Positions 8,099-57,640 of a stretch of DNA of 64,000 nucleotides are shown one piece after another. This stretch comes from Cryomorphaceae bacterium. Lineage in GTDB: Bacteria; Bacteroidota; Bacteroidia; Flavobacteriales; Schleiferiaceae. The stretch covers positions 5,001 to 69,000 of the forward strand of contig JAHEGI010000020.1 of assembly GCA_024639785.1 (NCBI GenBank), read 5' to 3'. The first letter of the stretch is position 1. Every line of letters begins with the position of its first letter. A program made the translations under genes and the position numbers. Below the pieces are notes generated by a model. The model made no database searches. It was given only the letters and a program-made list of their open reading frames with translations, and had not been told where the DNA came from.

Positions 8099-8169
8099 AA
8101 ACGAGGAAAAGCCGCGTTTGTTGTTTAGGCAAATTTGCGCTCTTTTTCACGAAAGAACGAGGAAAATCG

Positions 8170-8177
8170 TATACTTG
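8170..8177 (+). promoter_or_regulatory. Possible -7 box for porP-gldJ-murF
   Basis: TATACTTG matches TAnnTTTG at 7 of 8 positions and lies 25 bases upstream of the porP ATG in the 103-base divergent porU/porP gap. No well-placed -33 TTG is seen. Confidence 0.35.
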
Positions 8178-8201
8178 TGGCTCTTAATTCGTACATCTAA
8201 C

Positions 8202-9194: not shown

Positions 9195-9205
9195 TTGATT
9201 CTCTC

Positions 9206-41352: not shown

Positions 41353-44300
41353 CTAGTTTCCGAGGTTAAGTCGGAAAGCAATTCCACTCTGCCATTGATT
41401 GGTCGGGAAGGCCATGGAAGTTTTGAACTCTGAGATCGTCTGATCATAGTAAAACTGTGCGGCTAGACGGCGACTGAGACGATAGTCTGCGGTGAACTTG
41501 ATCGTCGTTCGTTTTTGGCCTGCGGTGGGCTGATTGAATCCTTCTAAAATGCGTCGGATGACGGTCTGGTTATCTGCGAGGCGCAAGTCCAACTTGAGTT
41601 CCAAATTAGATTTAATCTTATTCCGCGTTCCCGCCTCATCGACAATCGTGAATTGAACATCCCGAATAATGTAGCCCACTCCGATCGTCACATCGGTGCT
41701 TTTGCTTTCCGTGATTTGGTTGTTGGCCATGCTTAAAGCCACCTGGCGTTGCTTGCCTACTTCAAATTTGAAGGAGGTATTGGTCCGTGTGCGGATATCC
41801 ACCCCAATGAGCGGAGAGAAGGATTCTGACATGGAAACCTGGCCCACTTGATTTTCAGAAATAATATCCAAATTGGCATTCCTTGGATAGCGAACCGTGG
41901 GATCATCCTGTAGACGCTGGGCCCGTAACATGTTGGTTTGAATCCCCTGTACCGTCAAATTGTTGGCGTAGGCGTGATTGACTGCAAACGCGGTAAATAT
42001 TTTGCGCATCGGCTTAAGACGCATGAGCCCCGTGTAGTTGACTGTCCAGTTGGGCATCGGCGCAATGCCACCCAAGTCGTTGATGACCCAGGTATTGGCA
42101 TCTCCCATACCATAGGTAGACAGGAAGCTATTGAGCAGAACATCCGTTTGTAGTACCGAATAGCCTTCAAAACCATACCGCGAAGAATCTGGAGAGGCAA
42201 TAAAGCTTTTGACATACGTTGGGTCGTTTTGCCCCTGTAGGGTGGCCAATCGATCCGAAAGCACAATCCGATTATTCAAGAATCGCGTGTAGGCATCGCT
42301 ATCGTAATCCGGTGCAGCCGACTTTTCAAAGGCAGAATTCCACGCGAGCCAGCTCGTTGTAAAGGTTTGCTGGTTTTGGGGGCTAAAGGCATGGAATCCT
42401 TCGGGGAACAAGCTATCACGACCTGTTCCACGACTATAGCGATACGTACTGCTTTGCTGGCTGCCGAACGTTTGGTTCGCTGTCACCGTAATTCTAAAAT
42501 CCGTCAATGGCTCCAATTGGGCCCTTCCATTGATGGTACGGGTGCTTGTACGCATCATGCGGTTCGGTTGGTTTGGATTCTTGATGAGCCAATCATTGGC
42601 CGCGGCTAAGGGGCCGATGTCCACCGGCAATCCGGCCAGCATAGACCAACCAGGCGCCATGGCTTTGGAAGGATTTATTCCCGAATAGACTGGCGTGGGG
42701 GTGAATCCCGGAAGCAAGGTACCCGTATTGAGACTTCCAGAAACATTGACGCTTTTGACCAACGTGACCGCATCCACGGCAGCAATGAGTATTTGTTTGG
42801 CTATTCCGTTACTCTGCTCCTCTTCTTTGGCATCTTTCGGGCCATTAGCTCCCCTTGATACCGGACTGCGGGACGGCGCGCCTCCTCGGCTACGACTCGA
42901 ACCTTGCTTTAGCTTTTTGTACCACGGAAACTTGTTGTAGAAGGTGGCAAAATTCAGGTTAGCCGTGGCATTCCACTTACCAGAGTTCTCAATGGTATTT
43001 CCATAATTCAGACTGTCAATCCCTTGCATGATTGCCAATAGCGAATTGGTACTCCAATCATAATCTGCCGTATACCGCAACTGAACCTGGGCAAAGTCCA
43101 TATAGGGCAGCTTGTTGATTGGCACATTCCATGAAGTATTCACGGTATGGTGATAGGTGATGGGACGGCCCCCTGCTTGAATCCCCTGTAGCATGAAGGA
43201 TTTGACCGAGTCCACCGTATTCGGCCCCGGCAATTCATCCACTCGAACGCGCATGCGCGCTGTGTAGTCAAACTTTAAGCCCTTGCTCAAGTCCCAGATC
43301 ACATTATAGTTGCGATCCATGGTGAAATTCTTACTGAAGGTGCGAGGCAATTCAAACTTCGGATTGTCCACGTTGCGCATTTGCATGACTTGCACCGTGC
43401 GGTTGACCTCAGCCCGAGCACTCACTCGAGAAGGGGTCAAATTCACATTGAAGTCCTTGATGAGGGCGAGGTTTTTGTTCTTTATTTTTTTGAAAGGCTG
43501 GATATTAAATGGCGTCGTCTGGAACACATAGGCTAGGCTGCCTTTGTATTCTTGGAAATTGTCTACCAGCGTATTGGCATCGCGTTTAAGCACCTCATTA
43601 AAGGCATAAGAAGCGGTCCAATTGGCCAAATCAAAGGGAGTGGGGCCCATTCCCTTACCGCCTCCACTTCCGCCGCGGCCCGAGGGCCCAGGCAATCCCG
43701 GCATCCCCATGCCGCCTTTTCCATCTCCCGCATCCCCGCGGCCACCGCCCGGAGCGCCGCCTCGGCCGCCACCGCCACCGCCTGCGCGATCAAAGCGGAC
43801 ATTGGTAAAATTGAATCCCCTACGCTGGGTGAAATCACTCACCATAGAGCGCAAGGAGTCCCGCTCATCCGCCGTAGCCAAATTGCTCAGAGCCCGACTC
43901 ATCTCGATGTCTGGATTCAACGGATTGAACATGGGCGTTTTCCAGTCCTGTGCATGGTTGATGAAGAAGGGTAATCGAAGTCGAGTTTGAAAAGGAAGAA
44001 ACTTGGTGAGTTCCAAATTTGTCTGCAAATCGTACGTCGCAGAGGAGAACTTATTACGCTCTTGCGGATTCATTTCTAGAGAACCGAATCCTACCGTCGA
44101 ATAACTTGTGCTTAGCGCTACCTGACCCAAATCGGCTAATTGCGCGGTGCTGCGGGCGATTGCAGCCAAGCCACCTCGATTGTCAAAGTCCGTCATGCGC
44201 AACTCATTCACCCATATTTCCGCACACTTATCCATGCCATCATCTGCACTGGCAGAACTCCGTTTTTTGGGATTTCGAATACCCATCATTACGGTGCGAA

Positions 44301-47300
44301 CATTGCCCAAATTTGGAACGCCTACGACGCGAATCACCCCTTCCCCATAGGCCTTTTCAAAAGGCACATTGCTTTGAATGGCCGGATTGTCTCGGACCGC
44401 GGCATCGCGCTCTAACTTCAAGCTTGTCCACGCTTCAAAGGCAAGGTCTATCTCGTTTTCCAAGGGCCAAATCACCCCAGGATCGGTAGATCCGTAGGGG
44501 GTAACCTTGAGTGGCACCTCGAATTCGTAGTAATTCTGATTGTAGTCATTTCCCATCCGAATGAAGAGGCGAACATCCCCATCATTGAGTGGCTGCGAGG
44601 CATCGCCTGCCTCCGCATGGGCAAACAAACGCAATCGCTTGTTCATCCGCATGTCAATCGTCGTGTTTTTAAAGACGGCGCGTGCGTCTCCATCACGCAA
44701 TCCACAGGCCTTCATGGAGAGAGACTGTTCGTTTTGCTGAACCAAGGAAGTGTTACCAAGGAGTACTTGACGTTCAATTCCAGGAGGTAGGACGTAGGGA
44801 ATGGGCTGACGACCGCCATTTTCCTCCAGGTTCACTGCGTTCATGACAAAACTCGTCTCATCACTGGCATCCACGGGAATGAGCTCGCGAGACTCCTCCA
44901 GAGAAAAGCGATACCGCCTCCACTCTCCCCGGACAAGGTCTAATCGAGCGAAACGAAGGACCGTCGGATCTTCCCAACCTTTCAGAACCATTCGCAAGAA
45001 ACGGATGGATCGAAAATCACTTGCCCCGTTCACCCGGTCATCGGGATCAAATACGGGTATTTTAAATTGAATCCAGCGCACCGGCTTTCGCGTTTGGTCT
45101 GGCAAGAGATCCGTGGTGGTTTCATAAATATCGGCAATGTGATTGCGGCCGATGACCAAGTCCTCCGGACGCATGGAAATGCGGTATTGAAAGTACTGTT
45201 CTGACTTGTTCAGTGTCGCGTCGCGATTGACGTCCTCTTTATCTGGAAGGTTGGTATAGGTCGCTGGCAAACCGTTGATCAAAGTCGTTTGAGAGTTGCC
45301 ATCCGGATTATTCCAATACCGGTAACGACGCAGGATGTCTGCATCTGCACTGTCTTGACTTGGCCCACGATAATACTGGAAATTATCCGCTGCGGGATCT
45401 TGAGCGGCCACTGAGTAAATCGCCGAACTCGTGCCAAATACGGAGGCCAGGGAGGCCAAGTACGATTGGCCGCCCGTCCCAGGCCAGGTTGCTTCGGCCG
45501 CATCGGGAAGACCATCCAAACCGACATCTTGGAAAATCCGGGCATTCGGGTCATTGTCAAAAGCGTCCACGACCGGCTGGTATTTGGAAGTGTACCCCCA
45601 AATGCTCGAATCCACATCGAGGCGCAATCCGGCGGGAGAAAGTCCGTTTTCAAAACTTTGGCGACCGTCTTTCAAAATGTCCTCGGAGAGATTTCCAAGA
45701 TGGAAATAGAGGTCACCACCTGCTGCGCTTGGATCGTCCAAGAAGGGATCCATGACCCAAAACTGAATGAACTCAATGTTCTGCTCTTCGAAATTATTGA
45801 TCGTTAATTGGCGCATCAAACCGCCCCAGCGGCTTCGAGGATCCTTCAGGCTACCATCGTTTTCCAATCCCTTCGAGAGGCCAGGATAGCCCGCTACATC
45901 ATAGTTGTACGGGCCACGTTCCAAGGGATCGAACTGGATGTCAAACATCGCAATGTTTCGAGCCATGCCCGGCTGCAGGGGAATGTTAGGAAATACCTCA
46001 GCCAAAGGAACCATCCGTTGGCGATGATCCGAAGTGGTTGACGGATTGTTTCGAATGTTATCCGGAGTCTGGGAAGTGGATGCAAAGAAGCTTGGATCAA
46101 TAATATACCAGCTCAGTCGGGCGCGATTCGCGTTGTAAGCCCAGTCATTCGCCAGGGCCGCTTCGGGAAAAAGCTTGGATTGCCCCTCGGGGGTCGATGC
46201 GAGGGTCCACGTCGTGGTCCCGCGAAGATCGATCGTCGTTTGGCTCGTCTCAAAATCATCCAAATACGTCGTCGCCTCCCCATTGATCTTTATTCCTCGA
46301 GGGGACCCCGGAATGAGCTGGGCAAATTCAGCTTGAACCTGAACCCGTGAAGGCGCATTGGTACTGATGAAGGGCAATCCATCTAAGAAACGGGTAAGGC
46401 CTGGAAGGTTTTTCTGATACTGGGTATTGAGGCCCCAAATTCGATTCGAAATGGGTTCATCCCCTGCGTTGACTTTTTGGGTCAAGGGGCGCTCAGACAG
46501 CCTCAGCAAGGAGCCGCCAATGGTCCAATCACGTGAAAGCTTGTGTTCTACCGTGGTGCCCGCAAAGGTTTTGGCCTGCATATTAAAGAGCGTGTTGTTC
46601 TCAAAACTGACACGTATCGGCATACCTGAACTCAAGAGGCTCTCATTCAGGATACGCACTTGTCCGAGGGCATAATCGACGGTAAAATCTTGGTTTTCTA
46701 TCAATTTACTTCCCCCCGCCGTCACAGATATTGAGCCCCGGGGAATATTGAAGGCATTCAGCTGAATCAAGGAACCTCCCGCGCTTTTGTAGCGTCCGCG
46801 AAGCACAAATTTGTTGAGCTGCGTTTGCTCTTGGGCCCGGAATAAAGTCGAATCATATAGTTGTTGATATACGTATCGCTTTTTCTCTGCGGCAGTAGGC
46901 AGCGCCCGATCCAATGCGGATCCAAAAGGCTCCAACACAGGCAGGATGACTCGGCCCGTTTGACTCAGGACCGTGACGCCTTCGATGTAGTCAAATAAGC
47001 CATCTGGAAAAGGATCATTGTTGCTATTTACATGGTCCAAATCCAAGACTTGGATGAGCAACTTGTCCTTTACCGAGCTCTTGGGCAGGAAAGGAATGGG
47101 AAGACCGGTCTCATCATTTCGATACAAAACCTCCAAGCGAAAATCTTCGGGGGATAATTGGAAAGCATTCAAGCTGTACACATTTTTCATCATCAAGTCC
47201 CAAATGGGTGACTTGACATTGAGCAAGGTGTGCTTCACCAGTTTGAGGATGAGCGACTTTGGAGCAACGATCCCATCATTGGAGAATTCCCCGACTTGGT

Positions 47301-48666
47301 AGGTGCGACCGTTGGCGGTGTATTGATAGGCCACGGCCAAGACTTCATCCTGGTTTAGGGCCGTGTTTAGGGTCATGTAACCCATTTGCGGATGGAAGCT
47401 ATACTCGTTGGGTTGGAGTTTCCGCGCATTGGTCAATTCGGCATACTCCACATTGGCATCATACCCTGCGCTCGTCAAAGAGGTACCGGCTAATGCCCCA
47501 TCGCGCACCCCGGAAAATCGTTGGGTCAAATCCTCTGGGTCCAATCGGTTGACTCGGTTGCTCGGCAATGGATCCGAGGTGGCGCCTGGGAAAATAGATT
47601 CTCCTGGACGATTGTTTGTGGGCGAACGCCAGGCCTTACTCGTTCCTTCGCCCAAATCCGTGAAGGCGATAATATTTCGAACCTCTGTGGGGGTGCTCCG
47701 ACGATTGGTTACCCACACTTCCAGTCGAGTGATTTGGACAGGGGATTGAATCACGGGCAATGTGCTGAGCCATTGTTCGTAATGATCGCGGAAGTAGTGG
47801 CTTAAAAAGAAATGGCGATTCGCTTCATAGTTATCGCCCTGAATTAAAAACTCCTGCGTTGTCGCCCCTCCTTGAATGTTGAGATTTTGGCTTTGGCTGC
47901 GCTGTTCAGCCATAACCGTGGTGACCGTGGTGTTTCCGAATTGGAATTGTCCTTTGAGTCCAAACAAGCTCTGGGCCCCAGTAATCAAACTCCCCCCTGT
48001 TGGAAGACTCACGTTACCCATCTCCAGCGCCTTGACAATATCGTCCTCCGTGCCTTTGAAGTCGAGCTTCATTTTATTTTCAAAGGCAAACGTGGCCTCC
48101 GTGTCATAGTTGATTTGCATTTCCAATCGCTCACCGAGCTTCCCGGTGGCATTGACTTGCATTTTTTGATCAAAATCAAAGGCCAAAGTCTTCCGATTTC
48201 GCTCAGGGACAATGGGATTTTTAATGTGCTGGAATCGAAGCCCAAAGCGGATTTCCGCGGTTCCCTGGGGACGAAGCTCCAATTCATCCGAACCAAAAAT
48301 GTCCTTTATCGTCGGGTTGGTGATGGTCATATCCGGCACGATACTCGCGCCTTCCCGCTGGTCGGAAGCACTCCCCTGCGACCATCGATTTTGCCAACCT
48401 TGTGCTTCTTGCTGTCCAAAAACCAATTGTCGATATGCTGCCGGTGTGTAATACATCGGACCACCCAAAGGCACCGTCCCGATGTATTTCTGCGCTACGT
48501 AGAATCCGGTGATGGGATCGTATGTGACTTCTGTATGGATGTTACTGGGCGTACTCAAGCCCGGCATGTTCCAGGTACTTGATGAATCCTGCACTTGGGC
48601 CGTCAGGGTCCCAGTACATAGTACGGCCACAGCCGCCAAGAGGAGGCGCTGACCGAAATGCATCAA
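41353..48666 (-). CDS. sprA: T9SS outer-membrane translocon SprA (Sov)
   Basis: A 2437-residue outer-membrane barrel, the very large channel through which folded T9SS cargo leaves the periplasm. A signal peptide (LLLAAVAVLCTGTLTAQ) is followed by the family start YDPITGFYVAQKYIG. The rest is beta-strand rich through to a C-terminal barrel ending QSGIAFRLNLGN. Two hydrophilic insertions stand out: a Gly/Arg/Pro-rich stretch at residues about 1628-1675 and a Ser/Arg stretch near 1917-1955. Its length is close to SprA of Flavobacterium (about 2400). It overlaps ruvA by 4 bases. Confidence 0.97.
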   Translation of the reverse strand: MMHFGQRLLLAAVAVLCTGTLTAQVQDSSSTWNMPGLSTPSNIHTEVTYDPITGFYVAQKYIGTVPLGGPMYYTPAAYRQLVFGQQEAQGWQNRWSQGSASDQREGASIVPDMTITNPTIKDIFGSDELELRPQGTAEIRFGLRFQHIKNPIVPERNRKTLAFDFDQKMQVNATGKLGERLEMQINYDTEATFAFENKMKLDFKGTEDDIVKALEMGNVSLPTGGSLITGAQSLFGLKGQFQFGNTTVTTVMAEQRSQSQNLNIQGGATTQEFLIQGDNYEANRHFFLSHYFRDHYEQWLSTLPVIQSPVQITRLEVWVTNRRSTPTEVRNIIAFTDLGEGTSKAWRSPTNNRPGESIFPGATSDPLPSNRVNRLDPEDLTQRFSGVRDGALAGTSLTSAGYDANVEYAELTNARKLQPNEYSFHPQMGYMTLNTALNQDEVLAVAYQYTANGRTYQVGEFSNDGIVAPKSLILKLVKHTLLNVKSPIWDLMMKNVYSLNAFQLSPEDFRLEVLYRNDETGLPIPFLPKSSVKDKLLIQVLDLDHVNSNNDPFPDGLFDYIEGVTVLSQTGRVILPVLEPFGSALDRALPTAAEKKRYVYQQLYDSTLFRAQEQTQLNKFVLRGRYKSAGGSLIQLNAFNIPRGSISVTAGGSKLIENQDFTVDYALGQVRILNESLLSSGMPIRVSFENNTLFNMQAKTFAGTTVEHKLSRDWTIGGSLLRLSERPLTQKVNAGDEPISNRIWGLNTQYQKNLPGLTRFLDGLPFISTNAPSRVQVQAEFAQLIPGSPRGIKINGEATTYLDDFETSQTTIDLRGTTTWTLASTPEGQSKLFPEAALANDWAYNANRARLSWYIIDPSFFASTSQTPDNIRNNPSTTSDHRQRMVPLAEVFPNIPLQPGMARNIAMFDIQFDPLERGPYNYDVAGYPGLSKGLENDGSLKDPRSRWGGLMRQLTINNFEEQNIEFIQFWVMDPFLDDPSAAGGDLYFHLGNLSEDILKDGRQSFENGLSPAGLRLDVDSSIWGYTSKYQPVVDAFDNDPNARIFQDVGLDGLPDAAEATWPGTGGQSYLASLASVFGTSSAIYSVAAQDPAADNFQYYRGPSQDSADADILRRYRYWNNPDGNSQTTLINGLPATYTNLPDKEDVNRDATLNKSEQYFQYRISMRPEDLVIGRNHIADIYETTTDLLPDQTRKPVRWIQFKIPVFDPDDRVNGASDFRSIRFLRMVLKGWEDPTVLRFARLDLVRGEWRRYRFSLEESRELIPVDASDETSFVMNAVNLEENGGRQPIPYVLPPGIERQVLLGNTSLVQQNEQSLSMKACGLRDGDARAVFKNTTIDMRMNKRLRLFAHAEAGDASQPLNDGDVRLFIRMGNDYNQNYYEFEVPLKVTPYGSTDPGVIWPLENEIDLAFEAWTSLKLERDAAVRDNPAIQSNVPFEKAYGEGVIRVVGVPNLGNVRTVMMGIRNPKKRSSASADDGMDKCAEIWVNELRMTDFDNRGGLAAIARSTAQLADLGQVALSTSYSTVGFGSLEMNPQERNKFSSATYDLQTNLELTKFLPFQTRLRLPFFINHAQDWKTPMFNPLNPDIEMSRALSNLATADERDSLRSMVSDFTQRRGFNFTNVRFDRAGGGGGGRGGAPGGGRGDAGDGKGGMGMPGLPGPSGRGGSGGGKGMGPTPFDLANWTASYAFNEVLKRDANTLVDNFQEYKGSLAYVFQTTPFNIQPFKKIKNKNLALIKDFNVNLTPSRVSARAEVNRTVQVMQMRNVDNPKFELPRTFSKNFTMDRNYNVIWDLSKGLKFDYTARMRVRVDELPGPNTVDSVKSFMLQGIQAGGRPITYHHTVNTSWNVPINKLPYMDFAQVQLRYTADYDWSTNSLLAIMQGIDSLNYGNTIENSGKWNATANLNFATFYNKFPWYKKLKQGSSRSRGGAPSRSPVSRGANGPKDAKEEEQSNGIAKQILIAAVDAVTLVKSVNVSGSLNTGTLLPGFTPTPVYSGINPSKAMAPGWSMLAGLPVDIGPLAAANDWLIKNPNQPNRMMRTSTRTINGRAQLEPLTDFRITVTANQTFGSQQSSTYRYSRGTGRDSLFPEGFHAFSPQNQQTFTTSWLAWNSAFEKSAAPDYDSDAYTRFLNNRIVLSDRLATLQGQNDPTYVKSFIASPDSSRYGFEGYSVLQTDVLLNSFLSTYGMGDANTWVINDLGGIAPMPNWTVNYTGLMRLKPMRKIFTAFAVNHAYANNLTVQGIQTNMLRAQRLQDDPTVRYPRNANLDIISENQVGQVSMSESFSPLIGVDIRTRTNTSFKFEVGKQRQVALSMANNQITESKSTDVTIGVGYIIRDVQFTIVDEAGTRNKIKSNLELKLDLRLADNQTVIRRILEGFNQPTAGQKRTTIKFTADYRLSRRLAAQFYYDQTISEFKTSMAFPTNQWQSGIAFRLNLGN

Positions 48667-49238
48667 AGTTGGGCTAGGGCCTGTCTGACGACGGATTCGA
48701 CGGTAGAGCTTGGCTCTTTGGCCAAAATAGAAGCGACTACTTTTTCGACTGCGGGACGCGCGAAGCCCAATACAGTAAGCGCTTGAATGGATTCACCTCG
48801 GGCGGAACCAACTTCATCCAGCGGCATGGATGCGTCGACCTTGCCAACCTTATCACGTAAGTCAATGACGATGCGCTGAGCCGTCTTGGCCCCGATCCCC
48901 TTAATTTTCTGGAGGAGTCCACTATTGCCCGAAGCAATCGCCTGAACCGCTTCGGAAGGCTGGAGGGCTGACAAGATCATCCGCGCAGTGTTGGCTCCAA
49001 CGCCTGATACTGAAAGGAGCAGCAAAAAAACATCTCTTTCGGCGGCCGTGGCAAAGCCAAATAGGAGCTGAGCATCTTCGCGGTAGACGGCATGTGCCAA
49101 GAGTTTGACCTCGGGACCTTCCGGCATTTGACCATAGGTGGTCAGCGAAATATGAAAGTAATAGCCCACTCCGCCGCATTCCACAATGGCATGGGCAGGG
49201 GATTTTTCGATGAGGCGACCTACAAAATGATGAAACAT
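48663..49238 (-). CDS. ruvA: Holliday junction branch migration protein RuvA
   Basis: A 191-residue DNA-binding protein that targets the RuvB motor to Holliday junctions. The OB-fold N-terminus (VECGGVGYYFHISLTTY) is followed by two helix-hairpin-helix units: LLSVSGVGANTARMILSAL and LQKIKGIGAKTAQRIVIDL. A C-terminal RuvB-contacting helix domain completes it. It is coupled to sprA; ruvB lies separately at 56621. Confidence 0.96.
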   Translation of the reverse strand: MFHHFVGRLIEKSPAHAIVECGGVGYYFHISLTTYGQMPEGPEVKLLAHAVYREDAQLLFGFATAAERDVFLLLLSVSGVGANTARMILSALQPSEAVQAIASGNSGLLQKIKGIGAKTAQRIVIDLRDKVGKVDASMPLDEVGSARGESIQALTVLGFARPAVEKVVASILAKEPSSTVESVVRQALAQL

Positions 49239-49274
49239 CCGAGTCCTAACGCCTGAATTGACGTCTTTGGTATG

Positions 49275-49976
49275 TTACTGGATGAGGACTTTCCCCACGT
49301 TTTCTTGCATTGTTCCTGTGGAACGTCGCAGGATGTAGATGCCTTTTGGGGCGTCGCCTACATTCCAAACCACCTTGTTCGCGTAGGCCGGTACTAAAAC
49401 CTGAGCGCGCACGCGGCCCAACATGTCCAACACATCCACACGACCTGCTTGAGCCAAGGGGGCAAATTCAATGGTTACCCGCCCAGAATGACTCGGGTTC
49501 GGGTAAATCTTGTTTTTGATTTGCACGGGCTCTCCTTGTCCAAACGTTTGCGAAAAGGCAAAAATCATGGGCACATCCAAGAAGTCCGCTGTGTCCGCCA
49601 CGTTTTCGAAGCGATACCACACCGTGTCTTGACCATTGGCTGCAGTATCCATCACATAGGCGTAGCCGCTAAAGTCATAGGCTACCGCTCCGGCATTCAC
49701 TTGGACCGAGCCTTGGCTTTGATTCACCCAAGTTGGGTAGCAAAGGTCCCAGCAGAAATAGTTAGAATCCACAAGCCCTGTGTTTCCTACCTCAATACGC
49801 TTTAAAATATAGCTCTGCGTACTGCCACTTGTGTTCAATAAGGCAATATGTCCTTCTGCCAACGAACCGGTATGACTATTGACATAGGCTACAGAATCCA
49901 TGGAGTGTACCGTCAAACTTTGAGCGCTCAATGATGCGGTGAATACACAGGCGAAGAATAAGAAAATGCGTTTCAT
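49275..49976 (-). CDS. T9SS type A cargo protein, short
   Basis: A 233-residue secreted protein. The start at 49976 (MKRIFLFFACVFTASLSAQ) gives a signal peptide; the longer frame to 50048 is unlikely. The middle has beta strands of a DUF4625 or Ig-like type with no recognised catalytic motif. The C-terminus is a type A sorting domain: KIYPNPSHSGRVTIEFAP, VDVLDMLGRV and PKGIYILRRSTG. It should be exported by the T9SS made by the nearby sprA. A perfect -7 box lies upstream at 50004-50011. The function of the mature part is not recognisable. Confidence 0.87.
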   Translation of the reverse strand: MKRIFLFFACVFTASLSAQSLTVHSMDSVAYVNSHTGSLAEGHIALLNTSGSTQSYILKRIEVGNTGLVDSNYFCWDLCYPTWVNQSQGSVQVNAGAVAYDFSGYAYVMDTAANGQDTVWYRFENVADTADFLDVPMIFAFSQTFGQGEPVQIKNKIYPNPSHSGRVTIEFAPLAQAGRVDVLDMLGRVRAQVLVPAYANKVVWNVGDAPKGIYILRRSTGTMQENVGKVLIQ

Positions 49977-50003
49977 AGGTTCGAATGATTCTTGGAAGAG
50001 TTC

Positions 50004-50011
50004 CAAAGGTA
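50004..50011 (-). promoter_or_regulatory. -7 promoter box for the short T9SS cargo gene
   Basis: The minus strand reads TACCTTTG, a perfect TAnnTTTG match 27 bases upstream of the ATG at 49976. No TTG at normal -33 spacing is evident. Confidence 0.45.
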
Positions 50012-50127
50012 CATAGACCGCAAGCATTCCTCGTAAGCGAATGAACATAAGAAGAACGCTTTTTCATTATCTTTCGGTTCTCTTTTAATCCCAAAAGGAG
50101 TTAATAACCCAATTTTAACCAAGCACC

Positions 50128-52077
50128 ATGAAAAAACTTACGCTTGCTGTTGCCTTGATGCTAATCGGCGGAACCGCCTATGCTCAAGCAACTCGTCTGG
50201 TTTTGTTTGAGGAGTTTACCCAAGCGTCTTGTGGACCTTGCGCCTCTCAAAACCCTGCCTTCAACACCTTACTTTCGGGTAATACTTCAAAGGCGATCTC
50301 CATCAAATACCAGACTTCTTGGCCTGGTGTAGACCCTATGAATGCGGCTAACCCTACGGACGTCGCTACGCGTGTTTCATACTACGCCGTAAGTGGAGTG
50401 CCCTGGACGGCTATGGACGGGGTGGCCGCTACAGGCTCTTCGTACTCTGGTTCTCCATCCAACGCAACTCAAACCGCCATCGACGCGCGCTACGCAGTTT
50501 CATCTCCTTTGGCTGTTTCCGTATACCACCAGTTGAATGCTTCCTATGACTCGATCCAAATTGTTGTTTCGGTAAGCAATCCTGGCACCTCTTCCGTTAC
50601 TTCAGGTTCTGCCAACTCTTTTAAGTTGCACACCGTGATTGTTGAAGAAGAGATTAACTACCCCACGGCTCCAGGTTCCAACGGAGAGACCGATTTCTAC
50701 AGCGTCATGCGCAAAATGTTGCCTGACGCAGGCGGTACGACGTTGTCCGATACATGGGCTGCAGGCGCATCTTCTACCTTCACCTTCAATGTGGCACTTC
50801 CTTCCTACATCGCCAACTTGGGCGAGGTGGCCGTAGTAGCTTTCGTTCAGGACAACAGCAGCAAAGACGTGAAAAACGCCGCGTATTCTGCACCTCAAGC
50901 CGTTTCTGGCCTAGCCGATGCGGGCATCAATGCGTTGAATGCAAGCACCAATGGTTTGTGTGATGCCAATGTGACTCCTTCTGTCGTTTTCGAAAATGCA
51001 GGTTCTGTGGCGATCACTTCAGCTACTGTGGGATACAGCATCAATGGCGGTACGCCCGTTACTCAAAACTGGACAGGCAACTTGGCTAGCGGTCAGACAG
51101 CCACCGTCACCTTCCCACAAACGACCCTCCCTGGTGGAACAAGCTCGTTAGTGGCAACAGTTTCTAGCCCGAATGGATCTGGCGACTACAATGGCATGAA
51201 CAATTCTTCAGCCCCTGTTAACATTGCTGTTCTTAGCTCTACTCCACAAGCTTCTCCCAAGACGGAAGACATGGAAGGTGCCACGATAGGTACTATCCCC
51301 TCGGATATGATCATGCAATTCAACACGGCTACTGCTCCTCGTTTATACGTTGTAGACAAGTCGGTTGCTGGCACAAGCTATGAATTGGGTGGTTGGGGTC
51401 AATCAGCGAAGTCACTTCGTTACGACTATTATGCGATTGCTGCGGGTGCAGTAATGTCTGTGACCACTCAGAAAATCAACGTGAGCACGTTGACCGCGCC
51501 TAAGTTGTACTTCCAGCACGCTTACTGCTCGTACGCAGGTGAAGCGGATGGCTTGAAAGTGTACGCATCTACGGACTGTGGTGTCACTTGGACCAACATC
51601 TTCGATAAATCAGGTACGAGCTTGGCTACTTCGGGCAACCAAACGGCTCGCTTCTATCCTCAAGCAAGTCAGTGGGTAACCAACCAAATTTCTTTGGCAC
51701 AATTCGCGACTTCGAATGAATTGGTATTGAAGTTCGAAGGCACCTCGGCATACGGTAACAGCATGTATTTGGACAACATTTGGGTCGCTAACAACGCGTT
51801 GGGCGTAGACGAGCAAGCTGCTGCTTCCTTGGTAGCCTATCCAAATCCTGCAAGTGATGTCGCTACGTTGGACTTGAACTTGACCAACGAAGCCAATGTA
51901 TCGGTGAGCCTCTACAACGTAGCGGGTCAGCAAATCATGAATCTTCCTGCAGAGCGCATGGCTGCCGGCCAGCACAGCTTGGAGATTCCTGTGGCTTCGT
52001 TGCCAAATGGTCTGTACACGGCTCAAGTGAATATGGACGGCGCGATCCAAACGGTGCGCATCTCTGTAGCTCACTAA
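50128..52077 (+). CDS. T9SS type A cargo protein with Omp28-like thioredoxin-fold head
   Basis: A 649-residue secreted protein with a signal peptide ending GGTAYAQ. The N-terminal Omp28-related domain (residues 22-270) has a thioredoxin-type motif, CGPC at Cys35-Cys38 (EEFTQASCGPCASQNPAF). CARDB or Ig-like strands follow (about 275-380), then a choice-of-anchor J-like jelly roll (LYFQHAYCSYAGEADGLKVY). A type A C-terminal domain ends it: LVAYPNPASDVATLDLN and PNGLYTAQVNM. Export by the T9SS to the cell surface is expected. It is followed by a terminator. The homologous lipoprotein at 54636 lies in the next transcript. Confidence 0.92.
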   Translation: MKKLTLAVALMLIGGTAYAQATRLVLFEEFTQASCGPCASQNPAFNTLLSGNTSKAISIKYQTSWPGVDPMNAANPTDVATRVSYYAVSGVPWTAMDGVAATGSSYSGSPSNATQTAIDARYAVSSPLAVSVYHQLNASYDSIQIVVSVSNPGTSSVTSGSANSFKLHTVIVEEEINYPTAPGSNGETDFYSVMRKMLPDAGGTTLSDTWAAGASSTFTFNVALPSYIANLGEVAVVAFVQDNSSKDVKNAAYSAPQAVSGLADAGINALNASTNGLCDANVTPSVVFENAGSVAITSATVGYSINGGTPVTQNWTGNLASGQTATVTFPQTTLPGGTSSLVATVSSPNGSGDYNGMNNSSAPVNIAVLSSTPQASPKTEDMEGATIGTIPSDMIMQFNTATAPRLYVVDKSVAGTSYELGGWGQSAKSLRYDYYAIAAGAVMSVTTQKINVSTLTAPKLYFQHAYCSYAGEADGLKVYASTDCGVTWTNIFDKSGTSLATSGNQTARFYPQASQWVTNQISLAQFATSNELVLKFEGTSAYGNSMYLDNIWVANNALGVDEQAAASLVAYPNPASDVATLDLNLTNEANVSVSLYNVAGQQIMNLPAERMAAGQHSLEIPVASLPNGLYTAQVNMDGAIQTVRISVAH

Positions 52078-52097
52078 GCTATATCGCCTATTTTTAC

Positions 52098-52128
52098 AAT
52101 CCGGAGGGCGTATGCTCTCCGGATTTTT
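52098..52128 (+). terminator. Rho-independent terminator after the Omp28-like cargo gene
   Basis: ATCCGGAG pairs with CTCCGGAT around a loop of about 9 bases and is followed by TTTTT. It starts 21 bases after the stop at 52077 and ends 14 bases before the next ATG. Confidence 0.85.
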
Positions 52129-52141
52129 CATTTCAACTGCT

Positions 52142-52639
52142 ATGAAGAAACTAACTACCCTCCTTCTCTGCTTGGCAACTTCTGTCCTTATTGCGCAAGG
52201 ACTGCCCAATGCCGAAATTCAAAATCTTCAGGGCCAAACCCTGGATGCTAGTAGCCTTAAAAGCGACGGGCATCCCATGATTGTGAGTTTCTGGGCCACA
52301 TGGTGCAAGCCTTGCATCAGCGAGTTGAACGCCTTCCACGATTATTATATCGACCTGGCCGAAGAAACAGGCGTTAAAGTCTTGGCCATTTCCATCGATG
52401 ATCCACGCACAATGAGCAAAGTAGCTCCTTTTGTAGCAGGCCAAGCCTGGGAATACAACATCTTCTTGGATCCTAACTCCAATTTGCGTCGCGCTATGGG
52501 GGTGAACAACGTACCTCACACCTTCTTGCTCGACGGGGAGGGCAACATTGTTTGGCAAGCCAACAAATACGTCCCCGGCGAAGAAGAAGAACTTGCGCAT
52601 AAAGTGGAAGCCCTAGCGGCGGGACAACCCATTGAATAA
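52142..52639 (+). CDS. TlpA-like secreted thioredoxin
   Basis: A 165-residue thioredoxin-fold protein with a signal peptide (MKKLTTLLLCLATSVLIAQ). It is TlpA/ResA-like with active-site Cys55-Cys58 (FWATWCKPCISEL), the cis-Pro loop GVNNVPHTFLLDGEGNIV and a C-terminal helix. The KP pair between the cysteines is typical of reducing ResA/TlpA forms. It probably reduces or exchanges disulfides in periplasmic proteins. It heads a four-gene run with a DUF6029 barrel, a small secreted protein and an Omp28 lipoprotein. Confidence 0.92.
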   Translation: MKKLTTLLLCLATSVLIAQGLPNAEIQNLQGQTLDASSLKSDGHPMIVSFWATWCKPCISELNAFHDYYIDLAEETGVKVLAISIDDPRTMSKVAPFVAGQAWEYNIFLDPNSNLRRAMGVNNVPHTFLLDGEGNIVWQANKYVPGEEEELAHKVEALAAGQPIE

Positions 52640-52642
52640 GCC

Positions 52643-54310
52643 ATGAAGAAACTGCTCCTCCTTGCCCTTTGTGCCAGCACCTGGTCTGCATGGGGGCAGC
52701 AATCCACCTTGCGCGCCATCCTACAGAGCGATGCCCAATGGTATTTGCGCGATGAGGTCTTGGACCCCAGCGGTGAATTCTACCCCGACGAGCGCTTGTT
52801 GGGTCAAGGCTTCGCGCTTTTTACTTACACGGACGGCGACTTCAGCGCCGGCATGCGCTACGAAAACTACCAAAACGTCATGCTGGGCTTCCCTCCGGGC
52901 TTCCGCGGGGAAGGCATCAGCTACCGCTACGCACGCCTCAATCGGGACCGTTGGAACATCACGGTCGGAAATTTCTATGAGCAGTTTGGTTCTGGGTTGA
53001 TTTTCCGTTCCTATGAAGAGCGTGGCTTGGGATTGGACAACGCCATGGACGGCGTTCGCATCATCACGGACTTGGGCCATGGCCTCACCGTCAAGGGCGT
53101 TCTCGGTCGTCAGCGCCTCTACTTTGGCAAAGGGGAAGGTATTGTGCGTGGCCTCGACGGCGAATGGAGCCTCAACAAGGTCTTTCCCTCTCTGTCGGAA
53201 AAGCAACTCTACGCCACGGTAGGCGCCAGCTTTGTTTCCAAATTTCAAAAGAGCTTTGATCCCATCCTGAACCTCCCCAACAACGTCGGGGCATGGGCCA
53301 CACGGGCGAACCTCACCTACAAGAACTTTGCGTGGAACACGGAATACGCCTACAAGATCAACGATCCGAGCTACGACAACGGCTATATCTACCGTCCGGG
53401 GACGGCCTTTCTGAGCACTTTGAGTTACAGCCAAAAAGGGTTAGGGATCTTGGCCTCGGTCAAGCGCATTGACAACATGAGCTTCCGCTCCAACCGGGAT
53501 GGCCAGCAGTTTGACCTCTTCATCAACTTCTTGCCCCCCACGACCAAGCCCCATACCTACGCCCTAGCAGCCCTCTACCCCTATGCCACTCAAGTCAATG
53601 GCGAAATGGGTGGGCAGTTCGAAATCAACTACATGATTCCCCGCGGCAGCAAATTGGGCGGCAAGTATGGCACCCAGCTCAGCCTCAACACCTCCATGGC
53701 GAACAGCATCGACAAAGGCTTTTTGGAGGATGGCACCCGTGGCGAGAAAGGCACCCAAGGCTATACCTCCAATCCCTTCGCCTTTGGGCCGATTGTATAC
53801 TTCCGCGACGTGAACGCCTCGGTCACACGCAAATTTTCGAAGAAATACAAGAGCCAACTCACCCTCTTCAATTTCCAATACAACAAAACGGTTTTGAACG
53901 ACGGCGTCGGCGACATCACCCTCTTGGAAGCGCCAGGAACGGATTCCATCATCAACGTCCAGGCCGTCGTATGGGAGAACCAAATCAAGCTTCCCAAGGG
54001 CCAAACCTTGCGGACCGAATTCCAACTCGCCCTCGCCGATGGCTTCCGCGGCGACATGGCCATGGGCCTCGCCGAGTGGACCATTTCCCCTGACTGGACC
54101 ATTGCCGTTCAGGACATTTACAACTACGGCCACCCCAGCGAAAGCCGCCGGATTCACTACCCTATCATCTCTTTGATACACTTCAACGGCCCTACGCGCG
54201 TCCAAATCGGCTATGGCCGTCAGCAACAAGGCATTTTCTGTGTAGGCGGTGTCTGCCGCGTGGTCCCGCCCTCTAGTGGCTTAAGCTTCTCCTTAACTAC
54301 GAGTCTATAA
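52643..54310 (+). CDS. DUF6029 family outer-membrane barrel protein
   Basis: A 555-residue protein with a signal peptide (MKKLLLLALCASTWSAWGQ) and continuous amphipathic strands ending in LSFSLTTSL, indicating a large outer-membrane barrel. The stretches YRYARLNRDRWNITVGNFYE, SGLIFRSYEERGLGLDNAMD and RQQQGIFCVGGVCRVVPP fit the DUF6029 family. Function is unknown. A Cys pair (CVGGVC) near residue 534 is notable given the thiol neighbours. It starts 3 bases after the TlpA-like gene, and its stop overlaps the next ATG in TAATG. Confidence 0.87.
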   Translation: MKKLLLLALCASTWSAWGQQSTLRAILQSDAQWYLRDEVLDPSGEFYPDERLLGQGFALFTYTDGDFSAGMRYENYQNVMLGFPPGFRGEGISYRYARLNRDRWNITVGNFYEQFGSGLIFRSYEERGLGLDNAMDGVRIITDLGHGLTVKGVLGRQRLYFGKGEGIVRGLDGEWSLNKVFPSLSEKQLYATVGASFVSKFQKSFDPILNLPNNVGAWATRANLTYKNFAWNTEYAYKINDPSYDNGYIYRPGTAFLSTLSYSQKGLGILASVKRIDNMSFRSNRDGQQFDLFINFLPPTTKPHTYALAALYPYATQVNGEMGGQFEINYMIPRGSKLGGKYGTQLSLNTSMANSIDKGFLEDGTRGEKGTQGYTSNPFAFGPIVYFRDVNASVTRKFSKKYKSQLTLFNFQYNKTVLNDGVGDITLLEAPGTDSIINVQAVVWENQIKLPKGQTLRTEFQLALADGFRGDMAMGLAEWTISPDWTIAVQDIYNYGHPSESRRIHYPIISLIHFNGPTRVQIGYGRQQQGIFCVGGVCRVVPPSSGLSFSLTTSL

Positions 54311-54639
54311 TGCGCGTTCTGCTCCTCGTCGGTGCCCTCCTCGCCTACTCCCCGATTTTTGCGCATTCCGCGCAAGCGTTAGAGCCCGTAGGCCAGACCA
54401 CGGCAGTGGAACTAGGAACTACACATGAGGTCGACGTGATGTTTAAACCCACAGAAACCGGGGGCGCTGAAGTCATTCGCTACAAAGCCAAATGCCGTTT
54501 GAACCGCTCGGACAAAGCGGATCTCAAAGTCGAAGTGTACCGAATCATTGCCGAACTCGATTTTACCACCGAAGAATGGTGGGATGGCTCTCAAGCGGGC
54601 CAAACCTACCAACTTCCCATTAACATTACGTTCCAGTGA
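54310..54639 (+). CDS. Small secreted protein, function unknown
   Basis: A 109-residue protein with a signal peptide (MRVLLLVGALLAYSPIFA) and a mature part of beta strands (THEVDVMFKPTETGGAEVIR, YKAKCRLNRSDKADLKVEVY) with one Cys. I do not recognise a family. Its start overlaps the DUF6029 stop by one base, and its stop overlaps the lipoprotein GTG, so it is translated as part of the same unit. It may assist or be a partner of the barrel or the lipoprotein. Confidence 0.8.
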   Translation: MRVLLLVGALLAYSPIFAHSAQALEPVGQTTAVELGTTHEVDVMFKPTETGGAEVIRYKAKCRLNRSDKADLKVEVYRIIAELDFTTEEWWDGSQAGQTYQLPINITFQ

Positions 54640-55493
54640 AACACCTGATTTCTTTCCTCCTGCTCCTACTCATCTGGGCCATCGCTCCCAGCTGCGACGT
54701 CATCACAGAACCTTTCAAAGAAAACCCCAATCCGGTGGACACCAGTTCGGTGGTCCGCGGCGACACCCTGGTCCAAACCGCGCGCGCCGTCTTCATCGAA
54801 GACTTCACAGGTCACCGCTGCAAGAACTGCCCAAAAGCCTCCAAAGCCATCAAGGCACTGGATAGCATCTACGGGCCTACTCTCATCATTCCTGTCGCGC
54901 TGCACGCGGGCCCTTCCAACTTTACAGGCGTAAATACGGACTACCCCACGGACTTCACCACCGTTGAAGGGGACGATATCGCCACCCTGTTTGGCATCTT
55001 CGCGTTACCCATGGGCATGGTGCAACGCGCCGACTACCCCACCGCCCACCAAAAGACCTACACGGCATGGGCCGGCCTCGCTGCACAAGAAATTGCCTCC
55101 ACACCTGAAGCCCTGTTCACGCTCTCCGCGGACTATGACTCTGTTTCCCGACAAGCCATCGTCCATTACAGTGCAGCCCTACAAAGTGCCCAAGCCAACG
55201 CCTTGGGGATAGCCGTCTACCTCAAGGAGTCTCACATCATTTCTCCGCAGTTGATGCCGAACAACACGCGCGACGAATTCTACATGCACAAAAACGTATT
55301 CCGCGCCGCGCCACTTGGTCCCACCGGGGTCGAAGTTTCTGCTACAGGTGGTTCGGCTGGACAAGTCTTTACCGGCAGTGCGACTAAAACCCTGGATCCC
55401 CTCTGGAACCCCAAGGAATGCGAGTGGGTGGTCATTCTCTACGACCGCAGCACGTATCGGGTACTTCAGCCGGCGCAGATCTTCGTGTGGTAG
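54636..55493 (+). CDS. Omp28 family lipoprotein with CxxC motif
   Basis: A 285-residue outer-membrane lipoprotein. It starts at a GTG that overlaps the previous stop (GTGA) and has a lipobox ending at Cys20 (AIAPSC). The Omp28/thioredoxin-like domain follows, with VFIEDFTGHRCKNCPKASKA giving Cys62 and Cys65. Later strands include KESHIISPQLMPNNTRDEF and WNPKECEWVVILYDR. Omp28 was described as a surface protein of Porphyromonas; its thiol activity is unproven. It closes the TlpA-DUF6029 run. The homologous T9SS-exported form is at 50128. Confidence 0.9.
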   Translation: MKHLISFLLLLLIWAIAPSCDVITEPFKENPNPVDTSSVVRGDTLVQTARAVFIEDFTGHRCKNCPKASKAIKALDSIYGPTLIIPVALHAGPSNFTGVNTDYPTDFTTVEGDDIATLFGIFALPMGMVQRADYPTAHQKTYTAWAGLAAQEIASTPEALFTLSADYDSVSRQAIVHYSAALQSAQANALGIAVYLKESHIISPQLMPNNTRDEFYMHKNVFRAAPLGPTGVEVSATGGSAGQVFTGSATKTLDPLWNPKECEWVVILYDRSTYRVLQPAQIFVW

Positions 55494-55709
55494 TGGGCTA
55501 GCGGGCGCTACGCGCTGTTTGCTCGTATGTTCGTTCGTTGGCTAGCGGGCTAGCGCTTGGCAAAACAACGGAAAGTCCCGGCGCGCAGCGAAGGTCCACC
55601 AAAGAGTTTAAGGGTAAAAGAGAATAAGCGTTTAAGCGTTGACGCTTCATATCACCCAACAGACGATCTAGCGAACAAACACAGCGAGCGTGAAGCGCGA
55701 GCCCCCAAG
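55494..55709. repeat. Repeat-bearing intergenic region
   Basis: This 216-base gap separates convergent genes and is the longest in the window. An 11-base unit GGCTAGCGGGC occurs at 55496-55506 and again at 55540-55550; the second copy runs into a near-palindrome of two GCTAGC sites. A perfect small dyad AAGCGT-TG-ACGCTT lies at 55634-55647. The segments at about 55512-55527 and 55669-55685 are imperfect inverted copies of each other. No gene or clear T-tailed terminator is visible. It may be a degenerate mobile repeat. Confidence 0.5.
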
Positions 55710-56624
55710 CTACCTCGCCCCCAAATTCCTCTGAATCCCTTCCAATCCTCGACGTGTGAGCGCGGATTTCCCAAACACGCGATCAAACGTTTCTTCCGTG
55801 AGTTCGCGCCAGTCTTCGGAGGTCCAATCAGGCCACTCATTCGCTACGAATTTGGGCTCCGCATGCGCTTTGGCATGTCGGTTCCATGGACATATATCTT
55901 GGCATACATCGCAACCAAAAACCCACGGGGCAATCGCCTCCTTATGCGCCTCAGGCAACGCCCCATGCAGCTCTATGGTCATATGCGAAATGCAGCGCGA
56001 ACTATCCACCACCTCAGGCGCGATGATAGCGCCCGTCGGGCATGCATCAAGGCAACGGGTGCAGGTACCACAGTGATCAGCCACGGGGGAATCTGGCGCA
56101 AAATCGTAGTCGACAATGAGTTCCGCGAGGAAGAAAAAGCTGCCTTCATTTTTGCGCAATAGCAGGCTGTTTTTTCCGACCCAGCCTAGTCCGCTTCGTT
56201 TGGCCCAAGCACGCTCCATGACAGGGGCTGAATCCACAAAGCAGCGCCCTTGGATGGCACCGAGGGATTCGCGGAGACTGTCTAGAAGTTCGAAGAGTTT
56301 GTCTTTGACCACGCGGTGGTAATCTTCGCCGTAGGCATATTTCGCAATGCGCGGTTTTTCGCCGTCTGCGAGGTCCTTTTCAGGAAAATAGTTGTAGGCC
56401 AAGCTGATCACTGATTTGGCGCCAGGAACGAGCTTTCGGGGGTCTAAGCGTTTATCGTAGTGGTTTTCCATGTAGGCCATGGATCCATGATAGCCTTTGG
56501 CGAGCCAGGCATCGAGGGCCGGTGCTTCCTCCGCTAGGAAATCCGCCCGTGCCACGCGACAGGCATCAAAGCCTAGGCGTTCGGCATGCTGCAGGAGATA
56601 TTTTCGCGAGAGATCTGCGTTCAT
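55710..56624 (-). CDS. queG: Epoxyqueuosine reductase QueG
   Basis: A 304-residue cobalamin- and iron-sulfur-dependent enzyme that reduces epoxyqueuosine to queuosine in the anticodon of target tRNAs. The N-terminal cobalamin-binding part has [19 protein letters not shown] and [12 protein letters not shown]. Two 4Fe-4S motifs follow: [16 protein letters not shown] and [11 protein letters not shown]. It is slightly shorter than HEAT-repeat-bearing homologues, as usual in Bacteroidota. Its start overlaps the ruvB stop by 4 bases. Confidence 0.95.
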
Positions 56625-57640
56625 CCTTGATCAAAGAGACCCGTTTGGCTCGGTGCCTTTCGGCCTAAGTGTACAAATGCCTTATCCATTGCGACTCGAC
56701 CGCGGGGGGTGCGCGCCAAATAGCCTTCTTGGATCAGATAGGGTTCATATACTTCTTCCAAGGTTTCAGCTTGCTCCGAAACGGCCGTCGCAAGCGTATT
56801 CAAACCCACGGGGCCCCCTTTGAACTTGTCGATAAGGGCTGATAAAATCTTATTGTCCATTTCATCCAAGCCATGCTCATCCACATCCAACGCATCCATC
56901 CCAAAACGGGCAATCTCTAGGTCCACATGCCCTTTGCCCTTGACTTGGGCAAAGTCGCGCAATCGCCGAAGTAGCGCATTCGCGATCCGAGGGGTTCCAC
57001 GACTTCGCCGAGCCACCTCAATCGCGGCATTTGGTTCGACTTCAATATGTAAAATACCGGATGAGCGCTCGACAATGGTGCTCAGGAGTTCCACCTTGTA
57101 GTACTCCAGGCGGGCAGAAATGCCAAAACGTGCACGTAAAGGCGCAGTAAGCATCCCAGAACGCGTTGTCGCACCGACCAGGGTGAATGGCTTCAGTTTA
57201 ATCTGCACTGAACGGGCAGATGGGCCGCTCTCGATCATGATATCGATGGAAAAATCCTCCATCGCTGAATACAAATACTCCTCTACCACCGGACTTAAAC
57301 GATGAATTTCATCGATGAATAACACATCATTTTCTTCCAAACTGGTTAATAGACCAGCCAGATCTCCTGGCTTATCTAACACCGGGCCCGAGGTCATGCG
57401 CAAGGCACTGCCCAATTCGTTGGCGAGAATGTGCGCCAGGGTGGTTTTGCCTAGCCCAGGGGGACCGTGCAATAGGACGTGGTCCATGGCCTCCCCGCGT
57501 TGACGTGCCGCTTGAACGAAGATTTTGAGATTCTCAAGCACTTTGTCTTGTCCCGCAAAGTCATCAAAGCGCGCCGGCCGTAGGCGCTGATCTGCGTCGG
57601 CTTCAGGGGCCATGCCCTCATCATCAACAAAGCGTGTCAT
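56621..57640 (-). CDS. ruvB: Holliday junction DNA helicase RuvB
   Basis: A 339-residue AAA+ motor that drives branch migration with RuvA. Walker A is [12 protein letters not shown] (residues 59-70), Walker B is LFIDEIHRL, sensor 1 is VGATTR, and the arginine finger region is [20 protein letters not shown]-terminal winged helix ([18 protein letters not shown]) completes it. A perfect -7 box lies 5 bases before the ATG. Confidence 0.97.

Follow-up and report, generated by a model that had tools for sequence, protein, structure and literature searches.

What joint task, if any, is served by a run of five adjacent genes for secreted proteins, in which an outer-membrane barrel of the DUF6029 family stands among proteins carrying the CxxC motif of thiol-disulfide enzymes? 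The question is raised by positions 50128-55493 of a 64,000-nucleotide stretch of contig JAHEGI010000020.1 from a Cryomorphaceae bacterium (the whole stretch is hereafter called the window; it lies in contig C12 of a source genome comprising 1.8 Mb in 22 contigs). An initial annotation of this DNA had suggested a surface thiol system composed of an exported Omp28 protein, a TlpA-like thioredoxin, the DUF6029 barrel, a small secreted protein and an Omp28 lipoprotein. On balance, we favor, if only modestly, the view that this locus encodes a conserved module for thiol-disulfide exchange at the outer membrane and cell surface of Bacteroidota, and a putative joint redox function of the gene set appears likely. 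The core of this candidate module, as delineated by sequence comparison, is formed by a TlpA-like protein, the DUF6029 barrel and a putative lipoprotein with a thioredoxin fold (mostly Omp28, elsewhere of AhpC-TSA type). It is often accompanied by partners exported via the type IX secretion system (T9SS), both of Omp28 or AhpC-TSA type and PorA-like, and a conserved cysteine pair characterizes the core proteins as well as the PorA-like proteins in the families compared. The relevant features of the window are as follows.

52142-52639, + strand: TlpA-like thiol-disulfide oxidoreductase with CKPC and a signal peptide recognized by eye (AhpC-TSA, 3e-21)
52643-54310, + strand: DUF6029 outer-membrane barrel with 24 predicted strands (PF19494, 8.5e-165)
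54239-54256, + strand: codons of the cysteine pair C533-VGGV-C538 in the DUF6029 hairpin preceding the final strand (conserved columns; position in the model)
54636-55493, + strand: putative outer-membrane lipoprotein of the Omp28 family, with a CKNC-bearing thioredoxin fold and an Ig-like domain (Pfam Omp28, 58.4 bits)
50128-52077, + strand: T9SS-exported Omp28-type protein with CGPC and a C-terminal sorting domain (Omp28, 2e-13; Por_Secre_tail, 3.4e-11)
49275-49976, - strand: PorA-like small T9SS cargo with an FCWDLCY (CxxxC) N-domain and a C-terminal sorting domain (open reading frame (ORF) 49275-50048; MKR start at 49976 chosen by eye)
52098-52125, + strand: hairpin resembling an intrinsic terminator, downstream of the T9SS-Omp28 gene and ahead of the TlpA gene (12-pair stem and T run, fold z -4.0)
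54310-54639, + strand: small secreted protein of 109 aa, outside the core module (no significant Pfam family)

All five ORFs described by the initial annotation are present at 50128-55493 on the + strand, the last four being separated by 3, -1 and -4 bases (52639/52643, 54310/54310, 54639/54636), and the four cysteine motifs it had read (CGPC, CKPC, CKNC and CVGGVC) were recovered from the sequence. Pfam assigned Omp28 with Por_Secre_tail, AhpC-TSA, DUF6029 and Omp28 to the first, second, third and last gene products, respectively. The proposed grouping is indeed conserved, but the set was incomplete, as the PorA-like gene at 49275-50048 on the opposite strand had been missed. Both Omp28 matches and the single DUF6029 match of the source genome fall within this cluster.

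Conservation of the Gene Set

In a phylum-level sample of 296 Bacteroidota genomes (at least 90% complete), a DUF6029 match at E <= 0.001 was found in 80 genomes and an Omp28 match in 62. At our own cut of DUF6029 >= 60 bits, DUF6029 is retained in 59/296 genomes, with Omp28 present in 58/59 of them vs. 4/237 of the others (counts uncorrected for phylogeny); the sole DUF6029 genome without an Omp28 match (G355) has an Omp28-type gene 396 bases downstream, as detected by our own profile. An order-level sample of 246 genomes comprised 116 with both families, two with DUF6029 alone and nine with Omp28 alone (counted by reading).

Gene neighborhoods were compared over 82 loci scored on unfiltered reading frames, namely the window, Porphyromonas gulae and 80 further neighborhoods, of which 59 derive from the phylum sample (DUF6029 rows >= 60 bits, omitting the window's own row and the second fragment of a gene split in G266) and 21 were hand-chosen from the order sample. 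TlpA lies within 1.5 kb of DUF6029 in 72 of these loci, Omp28 within 2 kb in 70, and a PorA-like gene within 5 kb in 45. Counted by family (excluding P. gulae and taking PorA within 5.2 kb), TlpA, Omp28 and PorA-like partners recur near DUF6029 in 25/27, 26/27 and 15/27 families, respectively, vs. at most 5/27 for the best other neighbor cluster, and thus the grouping exceeds what chance would give. A shared DUF6029-Omp28-TlpA neighborhood had been set in advance as a test of the proposed system, and by these comparisons the grouping is conserved across the phylum. Cysteine conservation, on which the proposal equally depended, held up as well: the C-x-x-G-[VI]-C pair is invariant in 74/74 aligned DUF6029 proteins (an alignment that left out five intact longer or more divergent proteins and two damaged ones), while CxxC is present in 72/72 TlpA neighbors found and, at the aligned site, in 70/70 Omp28 proteins found.

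The 21 genomes with DUF6029 below 60 bits have no Omp28 match. Among the 20 distant loci fetched from this group (L145-L164), all encode C-x-x-G-I-C near the C terminus of the barrel and have, immediately upstream, a gene for a TlpA-like protein with CxxC, and 19/20 (the exception being L154, which has none) carry one or two downstream same-strand thioredoxin-fold proteins with CxxC. Ten of these downstream proteins were scanned, and all proved to be Redoxin/AhpC-TSA; eight are long and carry Por_Secre_tail, whereas two are short and lack it, having instead a cysteine at about position 17, judged by eye to fit a lipobox. Since TlpA, the barrel motif, and both exported and lipobox forms are kept, the same four roles seem to be filled in distant loci by other thioredoxin-fold proteins. 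The layout drawn in the initial annotation (periplasmic TlpA, outer-membrane barrel, thioredoxin-fold lipoprotein and T9SS-exported thioredoxin-fold protein) recurs beyond Omp28 in these loci. Use of the weak-DUF6029 genomes as a negative control on cysteine-motif conservation was considered and abandoned, as they retain the motif and TlpA and replace Omp28 with other thioredoxin-fold proteins.

The DUF6029 Barrel and a Possible Transport Role

The window protein matches DUF6029 (PF19494, 549.9 bits vs. a gathering score of 27, covering model positions 1-537 of 538), and DUF6029 is the sole family found in its Pfam scan. Over 81 DUF6029 proteins, just two cysteine columns are conserved, corresponding to C533 and C538 of the window protein and filled in 79/81 and 80/81 sequences; only the apparently frameshifted L086 and the truncated L087 deviate. 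In the structure model (mean predicted local distance difference test (pLDDT) score of 93.9), 24 long strands are counted. The connections between them are mostly short turns at one end of the barrel and long loops at the other, and the cysteine pair is placed in a hairpin (530-534, 537-541) joining the last two strands. DUF6029 is thus predicted to form a 24-strand barrel whose only conserved cysteines face each other in the last hairpin. As a rule, both ends of outer-membrane barrels are periplasmic; if this holds for both termini here, the cysteine pair presumably lies on the outer face.

Alternatively, such a barrel may serve in transport, as a pore through which a polysaccharide, a small molecule or a protein (PorA, for example) passes. 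The thioredoxin-fold proteins would then serve only to form or guard the disulfides of the barrel and its cargo, similar to the dependence of LptD disulfides on Dsb proteins. The 24-strand architecture speaks for a pore, and the three best Foldseek rows for the model are the PapC and FimD usher pores (VIA-align Z of 15.6-17.7 over 345-388 aligned residues at 3.9-5.3 A). OprD/AlgE-type 18-strand porins, which include the top VIA-align row, tie with them (Z near 17, about 305-340 residues, about 6 A), so that the fold match names no cargo. The usher likeness is visible by structure only, and a DUF6029 profile search against PDB returned RecA constructs alone (at 0.0079 and 0.1). Wzi barrel homologs resemble DUF6029, and a polysaccharide role has been proposed (PMC9603273). 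The folding of one barrel, were it their sole task, would hardly account for thioredoxin-fold proteins being exported from the cell, and we regard the pore explanation as rather unlikely.

Thioredoxin-Fold Partners and a Possible Role in Heme or Metal Acquisition

The TlpA-like protein contains an AhpC-TSA domain (76.1 bits vs. a cut-off of 26) with CKPC and falls under the curated cut-off of all 14 NCBIfam models listed (best 68.4 bits vs. 170, ResA), for which reason TlpA-like is used here as a broad name. Both Omp28 proteins belong to PF11551 (51 bits for 50128-52077 and 58.4 bits for 54636-55493 vs. 34.9), and the former also carries Por_Secre_tail (43.7 bits vs. 27), as does T9SS type A cargo; the search of its N-terminal part against PDB gave no significant match. 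The latter scores 140.6 bits (5e-41) with NF033782 (Omp28 family outer-membrane lipoprotein), short of the 150-bit cut-off, and is therefore filed as an Omp28-family putative lipoprotein outside NF033782. Among 43 Omp28 putative lipoproteins, C20, C62, C65, H90, P125, W145, E198 and R223 are invariant, P125 standing at the position of the thioredoxin cis-proline. The loci include 68 large Omp28-type proteins, 60 of which carry Por_Secre_tail and 45 the Pfam Omp28 domain; a few of those near loci L061-L140 also match alpha-amylase, kelch or fn3 domains. NCBIfam further contains an Omp28-related selenoprotein family (NF045500), which both window Omp28 proteins match far under its cut-off; a selenocysteine form of Omp28 would fit a redox-active site. 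By fold, the lipoprotein model is closest to HBP35 (5y1a; Z 23.7, 217 residues, 2.4 A).

This likeness has a bearing on another use of the cysteine pairs, namely, binding copper, zinc or heme and handing it on in heme or metal acquisition. The CxxxC spacing is reminiscent of Sco and CuA sites, and farther downstream the window contains ORFs that resemble, by eye, subunits of cytochrome c oxidase. Against this stand the retention in Omp28 of an invariant proline at the thioredoxin cis-proline place and the occurrence of the neighbor cluster of an ORF of ~594 aa (an oxidase subunit by eye) in just 2/27 families. HBP35 does bind hemin, and growth of its mutant is slow when hemin is lacking, but the CxxC is dispensable for hemin binding (PMC2907840), in line with our view of this alternative as decidedly improbable. 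The two cysteines of HBP35 are what its thioredoxin activity depends on (PMC2907840).

The PorA-Like Gene and Its Connection to Type IX Secretion

The gene missed on the opposite strand (49275-50048) encodes a protein with Por_Secre_tail (32.4 bits vs. 27), that is, another T9SS type A cargo. Pfam finds the sorting domain in 24 of its 28 relatives and no common family for the N-domain. In these 28 relatives, drawn from a list pre-filtered for C-x(2-4)-C, N48, C74 and C78 are invariant (28/28); in an unfiltered set, the first matched stretch contains CxxxC or CxxxxC in 45/49 PorA-like profile matches. As for the remaining four, the pair is found in another part of L083_14 and L113_9, is more widely spaced in L069_6 and is missing from that stretch in L093_6. 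A profile of the family N-domain matched the N-domain of PorA (PDB 6kjk) at E 2.4e-5, the next match being at 0.24, with LCFGQC contained in the aligned stretch. As a single query against PDB, the window protein found nothing, so that this homology is visible by family profile only. In L093 (G305:C105:7145-9050), the PorA-like domain is repeated, with four matches over two adjacent ORFs of ~500 aa.

Porphyromonas gulae DSM 15663 unites the genes on one strand: TlpA (6668-7150), DUF6029 (7212-8972), Omp28 (8992-9861) and PorA (9884-10606), the last of which contains YKGGGTGLTNIGLER, similar to the published PG2172 peptide (PMC4560394). PorA and Omp28 of P. gingivalis have neighboring numbers, PG2172 and PG2173 (PMC9722745). 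P. gingivalis PorA controls PorXY-SigP and T9SS gene expression and gets to the surface without the T9SS translocon, and other factors are expected between surface PorA and PorY (PMC7712824); a PorA-PorV-Sov complex also forms (PMC8754138). Cysteine residues, disulfides and operons go unmentioned in the main text of the 2020 PorA paper (PMC7712824).

In the window, the PorA-like gene is adjoined by T9SS and ruvA genes (41353-49238):

41353-48666, - strand: SprA/Sov, the T9SS translocon, as context (SprA_N, 1.3e-151)
48663-49238: ruvA, between the SprA/Sov gene and the PorA-like gene (Pfam)

A SprA fragment and a PorA-like gene also share the fetched locus in 18 loci of four families (f1, f11, f14 and f21). 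SprA_N occurs in 227/296 genomes; by table reading, these include 58/59 DUF6029 genomes vs. 169/237 others. The core may work without T9SS, as one genome (G448, locus L082) carries TlpA, DUF6029 and Omp28 together but has neither a SprA match nor a PorA-like hit. The Omp28 protein of this locus has two Omp28 domains, and a second genome of the same genus (G455) also lacks a SprA match.

PorA-like proteins might then be T9SS regulatory parts that merely share the locus with a separate redox operon of TlpA, DUF6029 and Omp28. Consistent with such independence, they occur near DUF6029 in just over half of the families counted above, and seven genomes have PorA-like hits (E <= 1e-5) without DUF6029. 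Of 39 genomes having both, PorA-like hits lie within 10 kb of DUF6029 in 27, on another contig in 10 and farther away on the same contig in two (at most 12 candidates were scored per genome, making these counts lower bounds); since 10 of the 12 distant cases involve another contig, the distance there is partly an assembly effect. The cysteine pair is, however, retained in the family, and PorA is kept in the cluster by three gene arrangements (34 upstream on the opposite strand, nine upstream and three downstream on the same strand), so that a mere sharing of the locus is distinctly unlikely in our estimation.

Transcription Units and the Small Secreted Protein

The hairpin at 52098-52125 separates the first gene (50128-52077) from the remaining four. 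Because it is terminator-like and the corresponding gap also folds to <= -19.7 kcal/mol in 9/10 relatives examined (not in L136; these values are without a shuffle control), the T9SS-Omp28 gene is probably a transcription unit of its own. The alternative TlpA start at 52112 falls within this strong hairpin, so the start at 52142 is more likely. The window sequence yielded no match to a Bacteroidota-type promoter pattern, and no tandem repeats were found at 49000-57000.

The 109-aa secreted protein, encoded between the DUF6029 and lipoprotein genes and counted as a member by the initial annotation, does not belong to the system: it is present in 3/22 genomes of the genus and unmatched in all the other 81 loci, and was rejected as a module component.

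Proposed Mechanism and Its Implications

In the module as we envisage it, periplasmic thiol equivalents would come from TlpA. The barrel, together with its partner lipoprotein, would pass the exchange to the outer face or carry it out there, with the exported proteins as clients or end partners. In Porphyromonas, the clients would include PorA, in which case the module would bear on T9SS regulation.

Several observations weigh against this interpretation. TlpA is not within 1.5 kb of DUF6029 in 10/82 loci (including all loci of families f46 and f47), nor Omp28 within 2 kb in 12/82, and CxxC is found within residues 16-160 in just 46/68 large Omp28-type proteins; the PorA-like genes remote from DUF6029, or in genomes without it, add to this. 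The proposed mechanism leaves the passage of thiol equivalents through the barrel unexplained. The authors of the HBP35 study saw no role in protection from oxidative stress (PMC2907840), and in Paraprevotella a T9SS protein related to Omp28 recruits trypsin (PMC9477747), so that the Omp28 fold serves other ends too. Within the literature searched (most subscription papers being outside its scope), DUF6029 is scarcely named, no biochemistry of DUF6029 or the gene set and no link among PorA, Omp28, TlpA and DUF6029 were found, and the combination of thiol-disulfide chemistry, type IX secretion and the outer membrane gave next to nothing.

To our knowledge, no thiol-disulfide system of this dedicated kind, extending to the external side of the outer membrane, has been described, and one would be new. 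A bolder version, speculative and rather doubtful at this point, would make this the first outer-membrane thiol relay, in which an usher-like DUF6029 might bring PorA-type Ig domains and/or thiol equivalents outside independently of the translocon, and the CxxxC of PorA would be a surface redox switch; TlpA, Omp28 and the barrel would determine its state, which PorXY-SigP would relay to the control of T9SS expression. What PorA senses becomes testable, as does its route to the surface in sov and porV mutants, a noted puzzle (PMC8754138). Should the redox reading fail, the gene set found across the phylum and the enlarged PorA family would still stand.

Comparison With Known Systems

The closest known counterparts are found, part by part, in several systems. 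P. gingivalis PorA (PG2172/PGN_0123, PDB 6KJK) shares N-domain homology and the C-terminal sorting domain with the window protein; its homologs were reported by BLAST in Porphyromonas only (PMC7712824), whereas the family is wider by profile. The TlpA/ResA/DsbE oxidoreductases share the AhpC-TSA domain and CKPC with the TlpA-like protein, whose gene differs in having an outer-membrane barrel as its genomic partner. For the window lipoprotein, sequence-profile matches point to Omp28 (PG2173, PDB 2R2C; 8.1e-30) and HBP35 (PDB 5Y1A; 1.6e-6), the latter being the nearest solved fold; HBP35 is T9SS-exported and hemin-binding, whereas the 54636 protein has a lipobox-like cysteine and CKNC. The chaperone-usher pores FimD and PapC resemble DUF6029 in their 24-strand barrel but share 10-13% identity with it, have accessory domains that are not visible in the DUF6029 model, and are equaled in Z by porins. 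The idea of carrying thiol equivalents over a membrane is common to the module proposed here and to DsbD, CcdA and ScsB; these are helical thiol relays of the inner membrane, whereas the present candidate is built around a barrel of the outer membrane.

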